DNA from: Reyranella aquatilis
GTDB lineage: Bacteria; Pseudomonadota; Alphaproteobacteria; Reyranellales; Reyranellaceae
Direction of reading: 5' to 3'
DNA length: 64,000 bases
NCBI RefSeq assembly: GCF_020880995.1
Contig: NZ_JAJISD010000003.1
Location: 124,001 to 188,000 of the forward strand
Shown here in pieces: positions 26,870 to 50,536 of the stretch. The position numbers and the translations under genes are program-made. The notes beneath the pieces were generated by a model. It did no database searches. It was not told the DNA's origin and saw only the letters and a program-made list of their open reading frames with translations. Numbering within the stretch: position 1 is the stretch's first letter; the number at the start of each line of letters is the position of its first letter.

Positions 26870-27910
26870 TCATGACGAAGGCTTCCAGTTGCGGACGATC
26901 TCGACCAGCCGCGCGACATGGTCGGGCGGAGTCTGCGGCACGACCCCATGGCCGAGATTGAACACGTAGGAACCGTGGCCGAGCTTGTCGAGAATGCGCG
27001 TGGCCTCGCGCTCCATCGCCTCGCCGCCGGCGACCAGCATGATCGGGTCGAGATTGCCCTGCACGCAGATGTGCGGCTGGATCTCCTTGGCAGCCCAGTG
27101 CGCGCCGATGCCGGTGTCGAGCGACAGGGCACTGAAGGTCTCGGGCAGGCGATACATCAGCGCCGCCGGACCGACGGCGCGCGGGAAGGCAAGGATCGGC
27201 ACGTGTGGATGACGCACCCGCAGGCCCTTGGCGATCCGAACCATCGGATCGAGCGACCAGTGGAAGAGCTGTTCCTCCGGAAGCACGCCCGCCCAGGAAT
27301 CGAAAAGCTGGACGGCATCGGCGCCCGCGTCGACCTGATGCCCGAGATGATCGACGACCGCGTCGATGAGCAGATCGATCAGCAGCTTGAAGGACTCGGG
27401 ATGGGCATAGGCCCACTTCTTCACCTTGCCGAATTCCTTGCTGCCGCCGCCTTCGATCATGTAGCAGGCGAGCGTGAACGGTGCGCCGGCGAACCCGAGC
27501 AGCGCGGTTTCCCTGGGCAGCTCCGCGCGGGTCCGGCGGATCGCCTCGTAGACCGGCGCCAAGTGCTCCTGCAGCCGCGCCCGGGACAGGCGTCCGAACT
27601 GCGAGGGGTCGGTCAGTGCCTCGAGCTTCGGCCCCTCGCCCTCCGCGAACCAGACCTTCTGGCCGAGCGCGTCCGGCACCACGAGGATGTCCGAGAAGAT
27701 GATCGCCGCGTCGAGCCCGAACCGGCGGATGGGCTGCAGCGTCACCTCGACGGCCTTGTCGGGCGTGTAGCAGAATTCCAGGAACGAGCGCGTGGTCGAG
27801 CGCACGGCACGATACTCGGGCAGGTACCGACCCGCCTGTCGCATCAGCCAGATCGGTGGCGTCGGATGCCTCTTTCCGGCCAGCGTCTCCAGGAATTTTC
27901 CGCCGCTCAA
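26870..27910 (-). CDS. hemE: Uroporphyrinogen decarboxylase
   Basis: Protein of 346 residues that decarboxylates uroporphyrinogen III to coproporphyrinogen III. It carries the family signature PPIWLMRQAGRYLPEYR near residue 20, the aspartate-containing AAIIFSDILVVPDALG, and GFAGAPFTLACYMIEG. The start is TTG at 27910 with GAGGGA about 7 bases upstream; a nearby ATG is out of frame. It is the first gene of hemE-hemH-hemJ and faces ppsR across the candidate origin, the arrangement seen next to the Caulobacter origin. Confidence 0.97.
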   Translation of the reverse strand: MSGGKFLETLAGKRHPTPPIWLMRQAGRYLPEYRAVRSTTRSFLEFCYTPDKAVEVTLQPIRRFGLDAAIIFSDILVVPDALGQKVWFAEGEGPKLEALTDPSQFGRLSRARLQEHLAPVYEAIRRTRAELPRETALLGFAGAPFTLACYMIEGGGSKEFGKVKKWAYAHPESFKLLIDLLIDAVVDHLGHQVDAGADAVQLFDSWAGVLPEEQLFHWSLDPMVRIAKGLRVRHPHVPILAFPRAVGPAALMYRLPETFSALSLDTGIGAHWAAKEIQPHICVQGNLDPIMLVAGGEAMEREATRILDKLGHGSYVFNLGHGVVPQTPPDHVARLVEIVRNWKPSS

Positions 27911-28232
27911 GTCTCGTCCCTCATGCTTCCTTCTACTCTATTCATAATAGGTTGTAGCAGTAGTAGAGCCTGTGGCACGTGGGGATGCGCCCTATTGGTC
28001 ATCGGTCCCCAGGCGGCTGTGGATCGGACGGTCCCGATTCCACGCGATTCCAAACCCTGATTCCCGACTCCCAGATCATTCGTCCCGAAGTGTACGCAGG
28101 GGACGATAGATCGGACGGCATGGGCGAGTCGTGGCCGGAATCGTGCCGGTTCGAGCAAAAGCCCCGATTGTCCCCGCAATGCTCACGGCAATCCCGCGTT
28201 TCTCCCGGCGTCGCCGTGGGGTAAAACGGGCC
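27911..28232. other. hemE-ppsR intergenic region, candidate chromosomal origin (oriC)
   Basis: No convincing gene is seen in these 322 bp. The hemE-flanking end is relatively AT-rich (about 27928-27966). Six GANTC sites, the CcrM methylation target, lie at 28036, 28046, 28059, 28066, 28126 and 28138, far above expectation for this base composition. TGTGGATCG at 28018 (reverse CGATCCACA) is one base from the Caulobacter G-type DnaA box TGATCCACA. In Caulobacter and relatives the origin lies between hemE and the ppsR-family gene. No cluster of consensus TTATCCACA boxes is visible, which lowers confidence. Confidence 0.5.
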
Positions 28233-29066
28233 GTGGCCAACCGGAATTTTCACGTCCATCTCGTGTCCGATTCGACCGGCGAGACCGTGTCGAGCGTCGC
28301 ACGCGCCTGTCTCGTCCAGTACGAGGGCATCTTCGTGCAGGAACATGTCTGGTCGCTGGTGCGGTCGCCGGCGCAGATGGAGAAGGTCATGCAGGCGGTC
28401 GAGCGCGACCGCGGCCCCGTCCTATACACGCTGGTCGACCCGGAATTGCGCGACGTGGTGCGCGATCATTGCCGGCGCCTCCAGCTTCCCTGTGTCGGGG
28501 TGCTCGACCAGGCGATGAGCGTGCTGGCGGTGCATTTCCACTCCAAGAGCGAGCAGTGGCCGGGCCGCCAGCATCAGCTGGACGAGGGCTACTTCGACCG
28601 GATCGACGCCATGCACTACACGCTGGCGCACGATGACGGCCAGTCCACCCACGATCTCGACGATGCCGACGTCATTCTGGTCGGGCCGTCGCGAACCTCC
28701 AAGACCCCGACCTGCGTCTATCTCGCCAATCGCGGGGTGCGGGCGGCCAACGTGCCGCTGGTGCCGCAGGTGCCGCCGCCGGTCGAGCTGGAGGAGGCCA
28801 AGCGGCCGCTGGTGGTCGGCTTGATCACCGATCCCGAGCGGCTGGTGCAGATCCGGGTCAACCGGCTGAGGCTGATGCAGCAGGACACCGAGACGGACTA
28901 CACCGACATGGACACGGTCCAGAGCGAGATCCAGGAGGCCCGCCGTCTGTACGCCCGCCGCAAGTGGGCGACCATCGACGTCACGCGCCGCTCGATCGAG
29001 GAGACCGCGGCTGCGATCCTGCAGATGCTGGCCACACGCCGGGAGCAGCGCCTGCAATCCACCTGA
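28233..29066 (+). CDS. ppsR: Pyruvate, phosphate dikinase/PEP synthase regulatory protein (PpsR/DUF299)
   Basis: Protein of about 277 residues, the usual family length. It is a bifunctional ADP-dependent kinase and phosphate-dependent pyrophosphorylase that inactivates and reactivates PPDK or PEP synthase. The N-terminal FHVHLVSDSTGETVSSVARA and P-loop GPSRTSKTPTCVYLANRG are diagnostic. The GTG at 28233 puts the start just before the conserved block; an ATG at 28179 would add 18 residues and cannot be excluded. It is divergent from hemE as in many alphaproteobacterial origin regions, but maf-aroE-coaE, which often follow it, are absent. Confidence 0.93.
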   Translation: MANRNFHVHLVSDSTGETVSSVARACLVQYEGIFVQEHVWSLVRSPAQMEKVMQAVERDRGPVLYTLVDPELRDVVRDHCRRLQLPCVGVLDQAMSVLAVHFHSKSEQWPGRQHQLDEGYFDRIDAMHYTLAHDDGQSTHDLDDADVILVGPSRTSKTPTCVYLANRGVRAANVPLVPQVPPPVELEEAKRPLVVGLITDPERLVQIRVNRLRLMQQDTETDYTDMDTVQSEIQEARRLYARRKWATIDVTRRSIEETAAAILQMLATRREQRLQST

Positions 29067-38211: not shown

Positions 38212-40866
38212 ATGCGGAAGGACAGCCTTGCCTCCTATCGCGCCAAGCGCGATTTCACCCGGACGGAGGAGCCGTCGGGCAAGGCGTCCGTCCCCAAATC
38301 GAAGCAGCTGCGTTTCGTCATCCAGCGGCATGACGCAACGCGGCTGCATTACGATTTCCGTCTCGAGCTCGATGGCACCTTCAAATCATGGGCGGTGACC
38401 AAGGGTCCGTCGCTCGACCCCACGGTCAAGCGGCTGGCCGTCGAGGTCGAGGACCATCCGCTCGACTATGGCGATTTCGAAGGCACGATTCCCGAGGGCC
38501 AGTATGGCGGCGGCACCGTCCAGCTCTGGGATCGTGGCTACTGGACTCCCGAAGGCGACCCGCATGAGGGGCTGAAGCGTGGCGACCTCAAGTTTACCCT
38601 GGCCGGCGAACGGCTCGAGGGAAGCTGGGTCCTCGTACGCATGAAGTGGGACCGCAAGGGTGGAAACAAGGGCGCCAAGGCGGGCGGTCGCACGAACTGG
38701 CTGCTCATCAAGCATCGTGATCGGGCGGCTTACGAAGGCGACGGCGACAGGCTTCTGAAGGATCCCAAGTCGATCGCATCGGGCCGCACACTAAAGGAGA
38801 TAGCGCTCGGCACGGGCAAGGCGCCCAAGCCTTTCATGTCGGGCAAGAGGCGCGGCGCGGGTGCGGTGTGGCAGAGCGACGAGAAGGATGGCGGCGACAC
38901 GGCGTCGGCGCCGCGGCGCAAGGCCAAGGCGAAGAAGATCGCGGCGATGCCTCGGTTCGTCGAACCGCAGCTCGCCAAGTTGGTCGAGCGCGCGCCCGGT
39001 GGCGCCGGCTGGGCGCATGAGGTGAAGTTCGACGGCTATCGGCTACAGCTTCGCGTCGAGAAGGGCGAGGCCACGCTGCGCACCCGCAAGGGCCTCGACT
39101 GGACGCGGAAATTCGAGGCGATCGCCAAGCAGGCGGTGACGTTGCCGGACTGCATCCTCGATGGCGAGGCGGTGGCGCTGGACAGCCATGGCGCGCCGGA
39201 CTTCGCGGCGCTGCAGGCCGCGCTTTCCGACGACAAGTCCGAGGATCTGATCTTCTTCGCCTTCGACCTGCTGTTCCTCGAAGGCGAAGACTTGCGACCC
39301 CTGCCGCTGTCGGAACGCAAGGCCCGCCTCAAGTCCTTACTCGACGGGATGAAAGGCAGGCATCCGGGACTGCGCTACGTCGATCATTTCGAGACCGGCG
39401 GCGATGCGGTGCTGCAATCGGCCTGCCGCATGCATCTCGAGGGCATCGTCTCCAAGGAGCTGGATGCGCCCTACAAGTCGGGCCGCGGCAATAGCTGGAC
39501 CAAGGCCAAGTGCCGCGCCGGGCACGAGGTGGTGATCGGCGGCTGGACCAGCGAGGGCCGCCGGCTACGTTCGCTGCTGGCGGGCGTCCATCGTGGCGAG
39601 GGCAAGCAGCGCAAGCTGGTCTATGTCGGCCGGGTCGGCACCGGCTTCGGCGAGAGCGTGATGCGCTCGCTGGTGCCGAAGCTGCGCGCGGTGGAGAGCA
39701 AGACCAGCCCCTTCGCCGCAGGCGCCAGTCCGCCGAAGGAAGCCAACATGCATTGGGCCCGGCCCGATCTGGTGGCCGAGATCGAGTTCGCCGGCTGGAC
39801 CGGCGCCGGCAACGTGCGCCAGGCGGCCTTCAAGGGGCTGCGCGTCGACAAGCCGGCCGAGGAGGTCGAGGCGGAAGTCGCCGCGAAGCCGGCGAAGACA
39901 AAGATGGCCAGGCCTGCGCCGCGCCAGGTGGCCGGACGCCGGAAAGGCACGGCCACGCCGTCGGATCGGGCCATCGTAATGGGTGTGTCGATCTCCCATC
40001 CCGATAAGCCGCTCTGGCCCGACGAGAAGCCGCCCGTCACCAAGCTCGAGCTGGCGAAATACTACGAGGCGATCGGCGACTGGATGATCGATCATATTGC
40101 CGGCCGCCCCTGCTCCATCGTGCGGACGCCCGACGGGATCGACGGCAAGCAGAAATTCTTCCAGCGCCACGCCATGCCGGGCTCTTCGCACCTCCTGTCC
40201 GAAGTGAAAGTGAGCGGAGACAGGAAGCCATATCTCCAGATCGATCGGGTGGAGGGTCTCGCGGCGGTGGCGCAGATGGGCGCCACGGAACTGCATCCGT
40301 GGAACTGCCAGCCGGGCCAGCCGGAGCGGCCGGGCCGTCTGGTGTTCGATCTCGATCCGGCGCCCGACGTGAAGTTCACTTCCGTGATCGCGGGCGCCCG
40401 CGAGGTCGCCGCGCGCCTGCGGAAGCTCGGCCTGGTGCCCTTCTGCAAGACGACGGGAGGCAAGGGGCTGCATGTCGTGGTGCCGCTTAAGGACGATGTG
40501 AAGTCGCCGGACTGGGACACGGCCAAGACTTTCGCGCGCGAGATCTGCCGGCGGGTCGCCGAGGACGAGCCCGGACTTTATGTTATCAAAATGTCGAAGG
40601 CCGAGCGGACGGGCCGGATCTTCCTCGACTATCTCCGCAACGACCGGACCGCCACCGCGGTCGCACCCCTGTCCTCGCGCGCGCGCCCGGGCGCGCCGGT
40701 ATCGATGCCCATCGAGTGGACGCAGGTGAAGGCCGGTCTCGATCCGATGAAGTACACCGTGCGCACTGCGCCGGCGCTGCTGAGGAAAAGCAAGCCGTGG
40801 AAGGACTATGCGACATCGGCGAAGCCCCTGCGCGCCGCCATCGAGAAGCTCGTGAAGTCGGAGTAA
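38212..40866 (+). CDS. ligD: ATP-dependent DNA ligase D (NHEJ)
   Basis: Protein of 884 residues with all three LigD modules in the order phosphoesterase-ligase-polymerase. The 3'-phosphoesterase spans about 35-180 ([30 protein letters not shown]). The ATP ligase spans about 245-530, with nucleotidylated K272 in EVKFDGYR and C-terminal OB domain. The primase-polymerase starts near 585 ([10 protein letters not shown]) with the metal-binding LVFDLDP. It processes and seals double-strand breaks together with Ku. It is encoded between katE and ku, which argues for a stress or stationary-phase repair operon. Confidence 0.97.
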
Positions 40867-40870
40867 AGAC

Positions 40871-41782
40871 ATGGCCAAGCAGAAAGCGATGCGACCGACC
40901 TGGGAGGGCCATTTGCGCCTCTCGCTCGTCACCTGCCCCGTCGCGCTCTACACCGCGACAGAGCACAGCGCCGACATCCATTTCAATCTCATCAACCCGA
41001 AGACCAACAACCGCATCCGTATGCAGACGGTCGATGCGGGCACCGGCGATCCCGTCGATCGCGCCGACCTGGTGAAGGGCTTTGCGGTCTCGAAGAACAA
41101 GTATGTGCTGCTGGACAAGGACGAGCTCGACGCGGTGCGCCTGGAATCGACGCGCATTCTCGACATCGAGGAATTCGTCGACGCGTCCGAGATCGATCGC
41201 ATCTACTGGGGCGAGCCTTATTATCTCGCACCTTCGGGGAAGACCGGCATCGAAGCCTATTCTGTGATCCGCGCCGCCATGGCGAAGCAGGAGAAGGTGG
41301 CGCTTGGCCGCGTCGTCATGCACCAGCGCGAGCGCATCTGCGCGCTGGAGCCGCGCGACAAGGGCATCCTGCTCACGACCTTGCGCAGCCACGACGAGAT
41401 TCGCGCGACATCGCAGGTGTTCGACCGCAGCCTGCCCAAGCCCGACGGCCGCATGCTGCAGATCGCGGAGAAGATCATCGAGCAGCAGGATGCCAAGTTC
41501 GATCCGTCGCGCTTCACGGATCGCTACGAAGACGCGTTGCGCGAGTTGATCGCGAAGAAGAAGAAGGGCCAGCCCGTCGTCTCCGAGGCGCCGGAGCAGG
41601 ACGAGGAGAAGGTGGTCGATCTCATGGAGGCCTTGAAGAAGAGCCTCAAGGGCGGTGGCGGTCCCTCGCGGGACAAGGCCGATCGCTTTCTCGAGGCGCA
41701 CGGTCGACAGAAGGCGAAGCCGGCCGCAAAGGCCAAGACGCGGGCGCGCAAGAAGACAACATCGCGCAAGCGCGCGGCTTAG
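40871..41782 (+). CDS. ku: Non-homologous end-joining protein Ku
   Basis: Protein of 303 residues, the bacterial Ku homodimer that binds DNA ends and recruits LigD. The core beta-barrel starts at WEGHLRLSLVTCPVALYTATE; further marks are NPKTNNRIRMQTVDAGTGDPV, YYLAPSGKTGIEAY and LGRVVMHQRERICAL. The C-terminus is Lys/Arg-rich (KTRARKKTTSRKRAA), as in other rhizobial-type Ku proteins, and should aid DNA binding. It begins 4 bp after ligD. A perfect 9-bp hairpin follows the stop. Confidence 0.97.
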   Translation: MAKQKAMRPTWEGHLRLSLVTCPVALYTATEHSADIHFNLINPKTNNRIRMQTVDAGTGDPVDRADLVKGFAVSKNKYVLLDKDELDAVRLESTRILDIEEFVDASEIDRIYWGEPYYLAPSGKTGIEAYSVIRAAMAKQEKVALGRVVMHQRERICALEPRDKGILLTTLRSHDEIRATSQVFDRSLPKPDGRMLQIAEKIIEQQDAKFDPSRFTDRYEDALRELIAKKKKGQPVVSEAPEQDEEKVVDLMEALKKSLKGGGGPSRDKADRFLEAHGRQKAKPAAKAKTRARKKTTSRKRAA

Positions 41783-46275: not shown

Positions 46276-48135
46276 ATGCGGGCCTTTTCATACGACGTGA
46301 TCGTGGTGGGCGGTGGCCATGCCGGCTGTGAGGCCGCGGCAGCAGCCGCGCGGATGGGCGCGCGCACCCTTTTGCTCACCCACCGGGTCGAGACGATCGG
46401 CGAGATGTCGTGCAATCCGGCGATCGGCGGATTGGGCAAGGGCCATCTGGTCCGCGAGATCGATGCGCTGGACGGCATCATGGGCCGGGCCATCGACCGG
46501 GGCGGTATCCAGTTCCGCACCCTCAACCTCTCCAAGGGCCCTGCGGTGCGCGGACCGCGCGCCCAGGCCGACCGCAAGCTGTACAGGCAGGCCGTTCAGG
46601 ACCTGCTGGCCGAGCAGGCCGGGCTGGAAATCCGCGCCGAGTCGGTTGCAGACATAATTCTGGATACACGTGGCGCGTGTGCCGGCGTGGTCACGGAGTC
46701 TGGTGCGGAAATCGGCGCTGGGCGTGTGATCCTGACGACAGGCACGTTCCTGCGCGGCCTGATCCACATGGGGGAAACCAAGATTCCCGCCGGTCGCGTC
46801 CGCGGCGACGGGGTCGAGGAGCCTTCCACGGCGCTGGCCCGCACGCTGGATCGGCTGGGCTTCAAGCTGGGGCGGCTGAAGACCGGCACGCCGGCGCGGC
46901 TCGACGGTCGGACGATCGACTATGGTGCGCTCGAGCGGCAGGACGGCGACGACCCGCCCCGGCCGTTTTCGTATCTGACGCAGAGGATCACAACGCCGCA
47001 GATCCCCTGCCATATCACGACGACCACCGCTGCGACCCACGAGATCATCCGCGCCAATCTTCATCGGGCGCCGATGTATTCCGGCCAGATCGAGAGCGTG
47101 GGTCCGCGCTACTGTCCGTCGATCGAGGACAAGGTCGTGCGTTTCGGCCAACGAGACCGACACCAGATCTTCCTGGAACCGGAAGGACTGGACGACTTCA
47201 CCGTCTATCCGAACGGCATCTCGACCTCGCTGCCCAAGGAGGTCCAGCTGGCGATGCTGCAGACCATTCCGGGTCTGGAGCGGACCGAGATGATCCGGCC
47301 GGGCTATGCCATCGAGTACGACCATATCGATCCGCGCGAACTCCAGGCCACCCTCGAAACCCGCCGCGTCCCCGGCCTCTACATGGCCGGTCAGATCAAC
47401 GGCACCACCGGATATGAGGAAGCGGCAGCCCAGGGGCTTGTCGCCGGCGTCAATGCGGCGGCATCCAAGCCGTTCGTTGTCGACCGCGCAGATGGCTATA
47501 TCGGCGTTCTGGTCGACGACCTGGTCTCTCTGGGCGTCACCGAGCCCTATCGCATGTTCACGTCCCGAGCGGAGTATCGCCTGTGGCTGCGCGCCGACAA
47601 TGCCGACCAGCGCCTCACGCGGCGCGGACTGGACGCCGGGTGCGTGGGTGCCGAACGCGCTGCGATGTTTCACGTGAAACATGAGACCCTGGAGGCGGCG
47701 CGGGCTCTGGCGCAAGGTCTGAAGATCACCCCCTCCGCCCTGGCCAAGCGCGGCGTTGCAATCAACCAGGATGGTGTTCCCCGGTCGGCGCTGGATCTCC
47801 TGGCCTACGCCGAAATCGACTGGGACCGGGTCGTCGGCCTCTGGCCCGAACTCGCGGCGATCTCGCCGGAGGTCGCGGAGCAACTGACGATCGATTCGCG
47901 CTATGAGGGATACCTCTCCCGTCAGCGGGGCGACATCGCCGCCTATCGGCGCGACGAAGCTTTGGCACTCCCGACCGATCTGGACTATGGCGCCATCGGT
48001 AGTCTCTCGACCGAAGTCCGCCAGAAGCTGGAAGCCAACCGACCGGCTACCCTCGGCCAAGCCGCCCGCATTTCAGGCGTCACCCCGGCCGCCTTGGTCG
48101 CTCTCCTGAAGCATGTCCGCCGGCGCGCCGCCTGA
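46276..48135 (+). CDS. mnmG: tRNA uridine-5-carboxymethylaminomethyl(34) synthesis enzyme MnmG
   Basis: Protein of 619 residues that works with MnmE on wobble U34. It has the FAD motif [19 protein letters not shown] at the N-terminus and the GidA signatures [28 protein letters not shown] and [16 protein letters not shown] (each in part). The C-terminal MnmE/tRNA-interacting helical domain is complete. A parS site is embedded at 47666-47681 and is translated as MFHVKH without disturbing the protein. The rsmG start overlaps its 3' end. Confidence 0.97.
47666..47681. promoter_or_regulatory. parS centromere site 1 (inside mnmG)
   Basis: Exact 16-bp palindrome TGTTTCACGTGAAACA, the universal chromosomal parS bound by ParB; the symmetry extends one base on each side. 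It lies inside the mnmG coding region, 1.9 kb upstream of parB. Confidence 0.95.
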
Positions 48136-48772
48136 CATGGACCCGCTCGCGGATGTTTCACGTGAAACACGAGCCCGGCTGGAAACTCTCGTCGAGACTC
48201 TGGAGCGATGGCAGAAGGCCATCAACCTGGTGGGACGAAACACCCTGGAGGGCGCCTGGAAGCGCCACATCCTGGATTCTGCCCAGGTCGTGCGTCAAAT
48301 CCCTGCCGAGGCCAAGACCCTCGCCGATCTCGGAAGCGGAGGTGGCTTTCCGGGCCTTGTGATCGCCGCAATGCGTCCCGACCTCGACATCACCCTCATC
48401 GAATCCGATGCCCGGAAAGCGGCCTTCCTCGGCGAAGCGAGCCGGAAAATGGGTCTGGAGAAACTTCCTCGGCTCGTGATCAAGCGCATCGAGGTCGCCG
48501 AACCCGTCCGGGCGGAAATCGTCACGGCGCGTGCGCTGGCACCGCTGGCACAATTACTGGCCTGGGCGGACCGCCACAGATTGGATACCGGTATTTGTCT
48601 GTTCCATAAGGGCAAAGAGTGGCAGGCAGAGGTGGACGAGGCCAGGAAGAGATGGGATTTTACCTGCGAAGCCATTGCAAGCGTGACCGATCGTGATGCC
48701 GTCATCCTCCGAATCGGCCCCTACGGCCCCACAGATCTTCGCGATCGCCAACCAGAAGGGCGGGGTCGGTAA
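48113..48772 (+). CDS. rsmG: 16S rRNA (guanine(527)-N7)-methyltransferase
   Basis: Protein of 219 residues, the SAM-dependent methylase of G527 in 16S rRNA. SAM motif I is [17 protein letters not shown], followed by [21 protein letters not shown] and the [13 protein letters not shown] region. The ATG at 48113 overlaps mnmG by 23 bp; an ATG at 48137, just after the mnmG stop, is an alternative. A parS site is translated near residue 14 as DVSRET. The 3' end overlaps parA by 77 bp, a larger overlap than usual. Confidence 0.96.
48154..48169. promoter_or_regulatory. parS centromere site 2 (5' end of rsmG)
   Basis: A second exact TGTTTCACGTGAAACA, 488 bp after the first and in a different reading frame of its host gene (read as SRET rather than FHVKH). 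Two close sites next to parAB are typical of alphaproteobacterial origin-proximal parS clusters. Confidence 0.95.
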
Positions 48773-49529
48773 GACCACGACGGCGATCAACCTCGCGACC
48801 GCTCTGGCGGCGGTCGGTGAGAAGGTCCTTTTGATAGACCTTGATCCCCAGGGAAACGCCTCCACGGGACTAGGGATATCCCGTAGTGAGCGCTCACCTG
48901 GTTCCTACGAATTCTTGCTGGGCCTGAACCCGCTCGATTCTTCGGTGCGCGCGACGCAGATTCCGGGCCTCGACGTCATGCCGGCGGCCGGCCAGCTCGC
49001 CGGGGCCGAGATCGAACTGATCGACCTGGAGCGCCGCGAGCATCGCCTGGCCGAGTCGCTGGCCGCACCGGGCAACGACGCCCGCCATCGCTGGACGATC
49101 GTCCTGATCGATTGTCCGCCCTCCCTCGGTCTCGTCACGCTCAACGCCCTGGTCGCCGTCGATGCGGTGCTGGTCCCGCTGCAGGCGGAGTTCCTGGCCC
49201 TCGAAGGCATCGGCGCGCTCGGCAACACGATCGAGCGGGTCAAGAAGCGACTCAATCCCAAGTTGCATATCTTCGGCGTCGTCCTGACCATGGTCGACCG
49301 CCGCATGACTCTCAGCCAGCAGGTCGTGGCTGACGTGCGCGCTCACTATGGCGAGCTGGTCTTCGGCACGACGATCCCGCGCAACGTCCGCATCGCCGAG
49401 GCGCCCTCGCATGGCATGCCGGTGCTGATCTACGACAATGCCTGCGCCGGATCGCAGGCCTACATCCTGCTGGCGAGCGAGTTCATCCGCCGCCGGCGCC
49501 TCGCAGCAGAACAGGCGATTGTCCCATGA
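48696..49529 (+). CDS. parA: Chromosome partitioning ATPase ParA (Soj)
   Basis: Protein of 277 residues with the deviant Walker A motif [39 protein letters not shown], and IVLIDCPPSLGLVTLNAL for the Walker B/switch region. ATP-bound dimers coat the nucleoid and move ParB-parS complexes. The ATG at 48696 is preceded by an in-frame GTG; either begins inside rsmG. The stop overlaps parB (ATGA). Confidence 0.96.
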   Translation: MPSSSESAPTAPQIFAIANQKGGVGKTTTAINLATALAAVGEKVLLIDLDPQGNASTGLGISRSERSPGSYEFLLGLNPLDSSVRATQIPGLDVMPAAGQLAGAEIELIDLERREHRLAESLAAPGNDARHRWTIVLIDCPPSLGLVTLNALVAVDAVLVPLQAEFLALEGIGALGNTIERVKKRLNPKLHIFGVVLTMVDRRMTLSQQVVADVRAHYGELVFGTTIPRNVRIAEAPSHGMPVLIYDNACAGSQAYILLASEFIRRRRLAAEQAIVP

Positions 49530-50536
49530 GCCAGCCCCCGAAACCGCGCGGTCTCGGCCGCGGCCTGTCCGCCCTCCTCGGCGATGACGAAGTCGCCTCC
49601 GCCGTCACGCCGACCGCGCCCGCCCCGCCCGCGGCGGTGCCGACCGCGTCGTCTTCGGCGCCAACGGTCTCGGCGCCGGCCGCATCGGCCGACGGCGGCG
49701 AGCCGGCCCGGGCCGCGGCCAACCGCACGCCGATCACCCTGCCGATCGGCCAGCTCAAGCCCGGCAAGATGCAGCCGCGCACCAGCTTCGAGGGCATCGA
49801 GGCGCTGGTCGAATCGGTCAAGGAATATGGTCTTCTACAACCCATCCTTGTGCGCCCGCTGCGCGACGCGGCCGATTCCTACGAGATCATCGCCGGCGAA
49901 CGGCGCTGGCGGGCGGCGCAGAAGGCCCAGCTCCATGATGTGCCGGTCGTCATCCGCACGATCGACGATCTGGATGCCCTGCAGATCGGCCTGGTTGAAA
50001 ACCTGCAGCGCTCCGACCTCACCGCCATCGACGAGGCGCAGGGCTACAAGCGCCTGATCGACGAGTACAAGCACACCCAGGAAGACATTGCGCGGATGAT
50101 GGGCCGCAGCCGCCCGCATGTCGCCAATACGATCCGCCTGCTCGACCTGCCGCCCGCAGTCCAAGAGATGGTACGGGACGGACAGCTCACTGCCGGTCTG
50201 GGACGTGCCCTGATCGGGGTGCCCGATCCGCTGGCCATGGCGAAACAGGCGGTCGCGGAAAAGCTCTCGGTGCGCGATCTGGAGCGGCTGGCGGGCGACA
50301 CCAAGAAAAAGGCCAAGGGCCTTGCCGGCGGCGGGGCAGGCAAGGGCAAGCCCGGCGCGGCCGGCGGCTCGCCCAAGACGGCCGATACGCGCGCGCTTGA
50401 GAAGCGGCTGGAGGAGGCGCTGGGCCTGAAGGTTGATCTCACGCTGCGCGGCCTCGGCGAGCAGAGCGTTCTCACCTTGGAAATCCGCGACTTCGACCAG
50501 CTCGACACGGTGGTCGACAAGCTCACGCGGCGCTAG
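49526..50536 (+). CDS. parB: Chromosome partitioning protein ParB (Spo0J)
   Basis: Protein of 336 residues. The N-terminal ParA-interacting segment PPKPRGLGRGLSALLGDD is followed by a 55-residue Ala/Pro-rich linker. Then come the CTPase/ParB domain (LPIGQLKPGKMQPRTSF ... YEIIAGERRWRAAQKAQLHDVPVVI ... LVENLQRSDLTAIDEAQGY, in pieces), a helix-turn-helix (DIARMMGRSRPHVANTIRLLDLP) and the C-terminal dimer domain. It binds the two parS sites just upstream. The operon ends here; the next gene is convergent 9 bp away. Confidence 0.97.
   Translation: MSQPPKPRGLGRGLSALLGDDEVASAVTPTAPAPPAAVPTASSSAPTVSAPAASADGGEPARAAANRTPITLPIGQLKPGKMQPRTSFEGIEALVESVKEYGLLQPILVRPLRDAADSYEIIAGERRWRAAQKAQLHDVPVVIRTIDDLDALQIGLVENLQRSDLTAIDEAQGYKRLIDEYKHTQEDIARMMGRSRPHVANTIRLLDLPPAVQEMVRDGQLTAGLGRALIGVPDPLAMAKQAVAEKLSVRDLERLAGDTKKKAKGLAGGGAGKGKPGAAGGSPKTADTRALEKRLEEALGLKVDLTLRGLGEQSVLTLEIRDFDQLDTVVDKLTRR

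Follow-up and report, generated by a model that had tools for sequence, protein, structure and literature searches.

The hemE-ppsR intergenic region of Reyranella is very probably the chromosomal replication origin and holds weak DnaA-type sites and a conserved set of GANTC motifs

The locus considered here raises the question of whether the short region between hemE and a ppsR-family gene is the place where replication of the Reyranella chromosome starts and, if so, what the GANTC motifs that crowd it might do there. A reading made from the sequence alone (the sequence-only reading) had proposed this region as the origin. The window, as we use the term, is the whole stretch of 64,000 nucleotides of Reyranella aquatilis DNA that was analysed, and the region and its relevant neighbours lie within it as follows.

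27911-28232, no strand: proposed oriC, the hemE-ppsR intergenic region (conserved length; GC-skew and KOPS-type switch in the relative G023)
26870-27910, minus strand: hemE, left neighbour (TIGR01464, E 4.1e-120)
28233-29066, plus strand: ppsR family (kinase/pyrophosphorylase), right neighbour (NF003742, E 1.6e-100; PF03618)
47666-47681, no strand: parS, perfect palindrome, inside mnmG
48154-48169, no strand: parS, perfect palindrome, near the start of rsmG
48693-50536, plus strand: parA and parB

Among the named genes, direction diverges from the gap as had been described, with hemE, hemH and hemJ pointing left and ppsR, mnmE, mnmG, rsmG, parA and parB pointing right. The parS locus that had been placed about 20 kb away consists of the two perfect palindromes listed above, at 19.4 and 19.9 kb from the gap and just upstream of parA and parB. 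Allowing at most one mismatch, one or two parS sites per genome were found in five of five Reyranella genomes, each 11-20 kb from the gap, and dnaA lies 121-150 kb from the gap in the four of these genomes that carry both on one contig; in the window's own genome, dnaA is on a different contig from the gap. Genes for LigD and Ku (bacterial end-joining) are located at 38212-41782 of the window, about 10 kb from the proposed origin. The gene pair itself is widespread: a ppsR match was obtained in 99 of 143 genomes of the class Alphaproteobacteria, and in the loci taken from 89 of the 98 non-own genomes with a match, hemE stands divergently beside ppsR in 82; for the remaining seven, the stretch fetched contains no match to hemE. 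A search of positions 27700-28400 for structured RNA gave no Rfam match up to an E-value of 1; in Caulobacter, the non-coding RNA CcnA is described as located at the origin (PMC8959179).

The cluster of six GANTC motifs in 107 bp on which the proposal drew was recovered in full (28036-28142, with starts at 28036, 28046, 28059, 28066, 28126 and 28138), and a seventh motif follows at 28269, within ppsR. GANTC is depleted in the 64-kb window (135 sites versus 337.8 expected from dinucleotide shuffles), and the density over the 400 kb scanned of the 475-kb contig (688 sites) corresponds to 0.18 sites per 107 bp, lower than the figure of about 0.3 given in the sequence-only reading. Within these 400 kb the gap holds the tightest group of six sites, with a Poisson probability of about 5e-8 per stretch and about 3e-4 across the 400 kb, while the next separate cluster needs 280 bp for six. 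Using approximate gene calls, which trim the gap to 220 bp, we obtained a density of 22.7 sites per kb in the gap versus an intergenic mean of 2.1; by the same approximate calls, the next-densest gap with at least three sites reaches 4.7 per kb. The second densest cluster in the 400 kb, with its six sites in 280 bp, begins at position 328505 of contig C22 (L022 from 8505), upstream of a ribonucleotide reductase open reading frame (L022:8891-10801). The start of this called reading frame contains CTATCCACA and TGTGGACAA (L022 8896-8916), two near-consensus DnaA boxes with one mismatch each, and the boxes of the proposed origin are all further from the consensus than these.

In order to see which parts of the gap are maintained, we compared it across the genus. 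From 90 loci, 58 distinct Reyranella gaps were retained after dropping 27 duplicates, two loci without both genes and three from outside the genus (ppsR identity below 80%). The length of the gap is nearly constant at 321-346 bp, that of the window being 322 bp. Mean column conservation over the 58 gaps amounts to 0.65 in unmarked columns (a mean that leaves out the conserved block at 28190-28206), 0.95 in the trios, 0.79-0.94 in the seven box-like sites and 0.82 in the GANTC columns, of which sites 1 and 2 reach 0.74 and 0.58. From hemE to ppsR, the order is an AT-rich stretch, trios, a 4-bp spacer, boxes 1 and 2, box 3, box 4, GANTC sites 1-4, box 5, GANTC sites 5 and 6, box 6, a conserved block and box 7, at the following positions.

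27935-27950, plus strand: AT-rich stretch, candidate unwinding region (mean column conservation 0.81 versus 0.65 unmarked)
27951-27966, plus strand: DnaA-trio-like repeats GTTGTAGCAGTAGTAG (conservation 0.95; GTAGTAGCAGTAGTAG in 34 of 58 gaps)
27971-27979, minus strand: box 1, degenerate DnaA box CGTGCCACA, 4-bp spacer from the trios (conservation 0.79; four mismatches to TTATCCACA)
27980-27988, minus strand: box 2, W-box type GCATCCCCA, abutting box 1 (TGGGGATGC in 43 of 58)
28003-28011, plus strand: box 3, W-box type CGGTCCCCA (conservation 0.81; the four commonest forms all have the core TCCCCA)
28018-28026, minus strand: box 4, G-box-like CGATCCACA, in other gaps CGGTCCACA ([CT]G[AG]TCCACA in 46 of 58 versus 0.4 in shuffles)
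28036-28040, no strand: GANTC site 1 (GANTC in 22 of 58)
28046-28050, no strand: GANTC site 2 (GANTC in 8 of 58)
28059-28063, no strand: GANTC site 3, core (GANTC in 47 of 58)
28066-28070, no strand: GANTC site 4, core (GANTC in 54 of 58; centre T 30, C 24)
28098-28106, minus strand: box 5, weak DnaA-box-like TCGTCCCCT (conservation 0.81)
28126-28130, no strand: GANTC site 5, core (GANTC in 42 of 58)
28138-28142, no strand: GANTC site 6, core (GANTC in 48 of 58)
28168-28176, plus strand: box 6, weak DnaA-box-like TTGTCCCCG (conservation 0.94)
28190-28206, plus strand: conserved block AATCCCGCGTTTCTCCC, no match to box, trio or GANTC (conservation 0.92 in 58 gaps)
28217-28225, minus strand: box 7, weak DnaA-box-like TTTACCCCA (TGGGGTAAA in 36 of 58)

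The AT-richer edge that had been noticed is on the hemE side, where the first two 60-bp segments have AT fractions of 0.55 and 0.52 versus 0.33-0.45 elsewhere in the gap. The near-match to the G-type DnaA box reported at 28018 is indeed present as CGATCCACA on the minus strand, but one-mismatch matches in the window occur close to chance (12 versus 9.7), and DnaA-box matches counted within the window by itself do not reach significance; box 4 carries weight because it is conserved across the relatives, not through the window counts. At the level of the genus, the core TCCACA occurs in all 58 gaps (70 occurrences versus 6.3 in shuffles) and the W-box core TCCCCA in 56 (111 versus 20.0), the G-box and W-box forms being those given in PMC4285127 and PMC4468827. 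The consensus TTATCCMCA was found in none of the 58 gaps, and neither TTATCCACA nor TGATCCACA occurs in any of them; 81 gaps of the class set (DnaA-box and trio counts there leave out only G002) contain 63 perfect TTATCCMCA boxes versus 0.4 in shuffles. The DnaA-box cluster at the Reyranella gap consists of weak boxes only. This absence of consensus boxes is no argument against an origin, because the boxes of Caulobacter are weak as well, and mutations that strengthen them can, according to PMC4468827, lower replication. In five of five Reyranella genomes (L056, L340-L343), DnaA carries the signature GNRDHTTV instead of the commoner GGRDHTTV. We considered this change as a cause of the weak boxes and set it aside: outside the genus, 3 of 28 loci have the same signature.

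The trio sequence TAGCAGTAGTAG has a single occurrence in 400 kb when both strands are searched. A strict search, which demands the middle adenine in every trio, detects trios in 49 of the 58 Reyranella gaps in the forward orientation and in 3 in reverse, and in the class set in 8 forward and 7 reverse of 82. Two earlier patterns returned nothing in 400 kb; they missed the gap of the window itself because one of its trios is TTG. With a looser pattern, written after the sequences had been inspected, trios appear in 32 of 81 class gaps forward and 2 reverse versus 0.25 in shuffles, a class-level claim that is therefore post hoc and on which we do not rely. A trio-plus-box pattern, likewise written after inspection, is found in 52 of the 58 Reyranella gaps forward and in none in reverse. 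The orientation of a basal unwinding system (BUS) is known from B. subtilis. The arrangement of such a system is given in PMC8287927 as boxes followed by about 4 bp of GC-rich sequence and then trios, the distance from trios to the better box peaking at 10-13 bp. The Reyranella gap resembles this in having three or more TAG/CAG trios separated by a 4-bp spacer from a tandem pair of box-like sites, with box 1 at 4 bp and box 2 at 13 bp, and at least three DnaA-trios lie within 16 bp of a box (TAGCAGTAGTAG, AGCC, box 1). It departs from the rule stated in PMC8287927 that the first box has at most two mismatches, since box 1 has four and box 2 three mismatches to TTATCCACA, and we call the gap BUS-like because this published rule fails.

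Conservation extends to the GANTC motifs. Disregarding kinship, the 58 gaps contain 283 GANTC versus 92.4 in shuffles, and seven palindromes of like composition occur 5-66 times. At least three motifs are present in 55 of the 58 gaps, one gap has two and two have one. The four core sites 3-6 are kept in 47, 54, 42 and 48 gaps (again ignoring kinship), whereas for an arbitrary position the share of gaps that keep its four letters has a median of 21% and a mean of 34%. The centre base of site 4 varies (T 30, C 24) between constant outer letters, the pattern to be expected from selection on the GANTC palindrome itself. These numbers leave next to no room for the view that the cluster arose by chance in a single genome: both the upkeep of sites 3-6 and the excess of 283 observed over 92.4 expected motifs, kinship ignored, stand against it, although sites 1 and 2, poorly retained (22 and 8 of 58), would agree with it and may be chance features. 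The genome of the window encodes a CcrM-type methylase with PF01555 and RAMA domains (closest solved relative CcrMI, E 3.4e-163), and combines this enzyme with GANTC sites in its proposed origin. The gaps low in GANTC are L047, L058 and L171, with one, one and two sites. L058 (G002) and L047 (G049) keep most of the origin anatomy with a single GANTC, and each genome has a RAMA domain; five GANTC are present in the hemE-ppsR gap of another family member, L059 (G003), whose genome gave no RAMA match. Across the class, counted over 80 gaps (the 82 without the congener G002 and the family member G003), the 70 RAMA-positive genomes have 194 GANTC versus 132.6 in shuffles (controls 41-108), and the 10 RAMA-negative genomes have 27 versus 19.1 (controls 7-16). 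The idea that the excess tracks CcrM across the class was dropped, as RAMA-negative genomes resemble RAMA-positive ones in a test that may miss methylases without the domain; the modest class-wide excess, alike with or without RAMA, does not prove that methylation plays a role. What is less ordinary about the gap is its all-weak-box design and its in-register GANTC quartet.

To place the origin by strand asymmetry, we turned to the relative G023, a Reyranella genome in a single contig of 5,792,259 bp, of which 40 windows of 20 kb were sampled. GC skew and the polarity of the KOPS-type motif GGGNAGGG flip sign at 4.95-5.075 Mb and at 2.05-2.175 Mb, and at 5.075 Mb GGGNAGGG occurs in both polarities (1:1); the optima of ORF strand and T-A skew differ from the GC-skew/KOPS optimum. 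The hemE-ppsR gap of this genome lies at 4.98696-4.98729 Mb, with its antipode at 2.091 Mb. When the origin is fixed at the gap and the terminus at the antipode, GC skew has the expected sign in 39 of 40 windows, and the two arms have GGGNAGGG counts of 45:7 and 4:53. The cumulative-skew minimum within 4.93-5.07 Mb is at 4,989,509, 2.2 kb from the gap, and the change-point interval of 4.975-4.992 Mb (within 3.84 deviance units) contains the gap. The skew change point, which on the sequence-only reading should not map next to dnaA or parB, falls on the gap instead.

In many bacteria, dnaA and parS are found near the origin, and it might be argued that the origin lies at dnaA or at parAB/parS, hemE and ppsR being merely a conserved gene pair. 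The proximity of parS (11-20 kb) speaks for such a reading, as does the common origin-proximity of dnaA, here at 121-150 kb, and the bootstrap of the G023 skew minimum gives a wider interval of 4.967-5.058 Mb, which excludes dnaA (4.842 Mb) but runs past parS (5.003 Mb). Both loci nevertheless lie outside the change-point interval, the sampled windows flanking dnaA (4.785 and 4.930 Mb) both have negative GC skew, and the conserved DnaA-type array sits in the hemE-ppsR gap. An origin at dnaA or parS is not favoured by the G023 skew, and we regard it as very improbable. The single-contig genome G002 has weak local skew: the minimum in the 280 kb from 1.86 to 2.14 Mb is at 1,891,807, 107 kb from its gap, the best GC-skew origin at 1.56-1.63 Mb scores 0.344 versus 0.330 at the gap (20 of 34 windows), and the gap is among the tied KOPS optima (20 of 34 windows). 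Its skew is compatible with an origin at the gap and not decisive. On the contig of the window, the cumulative-skew minimum over 400 kb is 66 kb to the left of the gap; mean skew is -0.0072 over the 152 kb to the left and +0.0074 over the 248 kb to the right, and KOPS counts are 5:19 on the left and 11:10 on the right, where the arm is unskewed. The asymmetry of G002 and of this contig fits an origin in the region, without pinpointing the gap.

The conserved anatomy of the gap and the place of the strand-composition switch are direct observations. Together, the skew switch in G023 and the origin-type parts found throughout the genus support the proposal that the hemE-ppsR gap is the chromosomal origin, and we conclude that it very probably is. 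Binding by DnaA, unwinding and methylation, as well as whatever effect methylation may have, are inferred. The joint explanation, in which the 322-bp gap would be an origin with DnaA on weak sites, trio-guided opening and CcrM-methylated GANTC, seems to us highly probable on the comparative evidence. DnaA would load on the weak array, in which the G-box-like site at 28018 is joined by several W-box-like ones, and would extend from the weak tandem pair (27971-27988) onto the hemE-side trios (27951-27966). Guided by the trios, it would open the AT-rich stretch beside hemE; a pair of divergent forks would depart, with early segregation of the parS sites, which lie at a distance of 19.4-19.9 kb. 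CcrM would methylate the GANTC sites, which are flanked by the G-box-like site on one side and the ppsR-side boxes on the other; firing of the origin would leave these GANTC sites hemimethylated. The comparison supports the assignment of the gap to the alphaproteobacterial DnaA-type origins at hemE-ppsR, a kind already known; by title, the literature on Reyranella and oriC yielded no earlier description of a Reyranella origin.

The second neighbour of the Caulobacter crescentus origin, Cori, is a gene that we take to be of the ppsR family. The Reyranella gap is like Cori in its position at hemE, in carrying G-boxes and W-boxes of the TCCCCA type where E. coli has its consensus box and in bearing several GANTC (PMC4285127, PMC4468827, PMC8959179, PMC3973325), and a GANTC-bearing origin is not new, because several GANTC are described in the Caulobacter origin (PMC3973325). 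It is unlike Cori in that the four GANTC stand in fixed register within Reyranella, and in that TGATCCACA and TTATCCACA are missing and the G-box-like form is CGATCCACA or CGGTCCACA. Five CtrA sites are given for Cori (PMC8959179), whereas the double site TTAA-N7-TTAA is found in none of the 58 Reyranella gaps, in which TTAA occurs 14 times altogether; TTAA-N6-8-TTAA is present in 15 of 82 gaps of the class set. Because of this absence, CtrA control of the Caulobacter type appears unlikely for the Reyranella origin. With E. coli oriC and its Dam/SeqA system, the gap shares methylation sites clustered amid an array of DnaA boxes (PMC2865523), and differs in using GANTC and CcrM instead of GATC and Dam, CcrM being described as dispensable for initiation control in Caulobacter (PMC3973325).

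Since four sites are held in register, we think that the hemimethylated state of the GANTC sites most likely matters, be it for transcription of hemE or ppsR or for the loading of DnaA. The conserved motifs may serve transcription from a CcrM/GcrA-regulated hemE or ppsR promoter and not initiation, in which case the gap may still be the origin. We give this possibility a little less than an even chance. It would agree with the enrichment of GANTC in intergenic DNA of most alphaproteobacterial chromosomes and the action of GcrA at methylated GANTC promoters (both stated in PMC8116508), with the position of the next densest cluster of the contig upstream of a ribonucleotide reductase gene, and with the account in PMC3973325 that deletion of ccrM in Caulobacter leaves initiation control intact; the location of the core sites within the box array is equally consistent with a role in initiation. 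Alternatively, the array could gate initiation in a Dam/SeqA-like manner, full methylation by CcrM licensing the origin and hemimethylation blocking re-firing, which we consider unlikely. The retention of sites 3-6 (47, 54, 42 and 48 of 58 versus the median of 21%), with the centre base of site 4 free, speaks for a gate, as do a 2008 model and a 2010 introduction that require full methylation of the Caulobacter origin for firing (PMC2217572, PMC2865523) and the extra chromosomes described after CcrM over-expression in Caulobacter (PMC3973325). It is opposed by the single GANTC site in two congeners, by the normal initiation control described for Caulobacter without ccrM (PMC3973325) and by PMC11514494, which reports for the DnaA-dependent ori1 of Agrobacterium no significant effect of CcrM depletion or excess and, for ori2, that CcrM does have effects. 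Somewhat more doubtful still is an epigenetic gate particular to Reyranella that works without CtrA double sites or strong boxes, whereby loading of DnaA on the weak-box array would depend on methylation of the GANTC quartet and late CcrM activity would license the next round.

The published statements, in the parts relevant here, conflict on whether GANTC methylation controls firing, with PMC2217572 and PMC2865523 for it and PMC3973325 against. The Reyranella gap is well bounded, strongly conserved and 322 bp long, with only weak DnaA-type sites, no double CtrA site and a CcrM-bearing host. With four GANTC in register in most of the 58 relatives, it would offer a natural testbed for the methylation dispute in a new organism.
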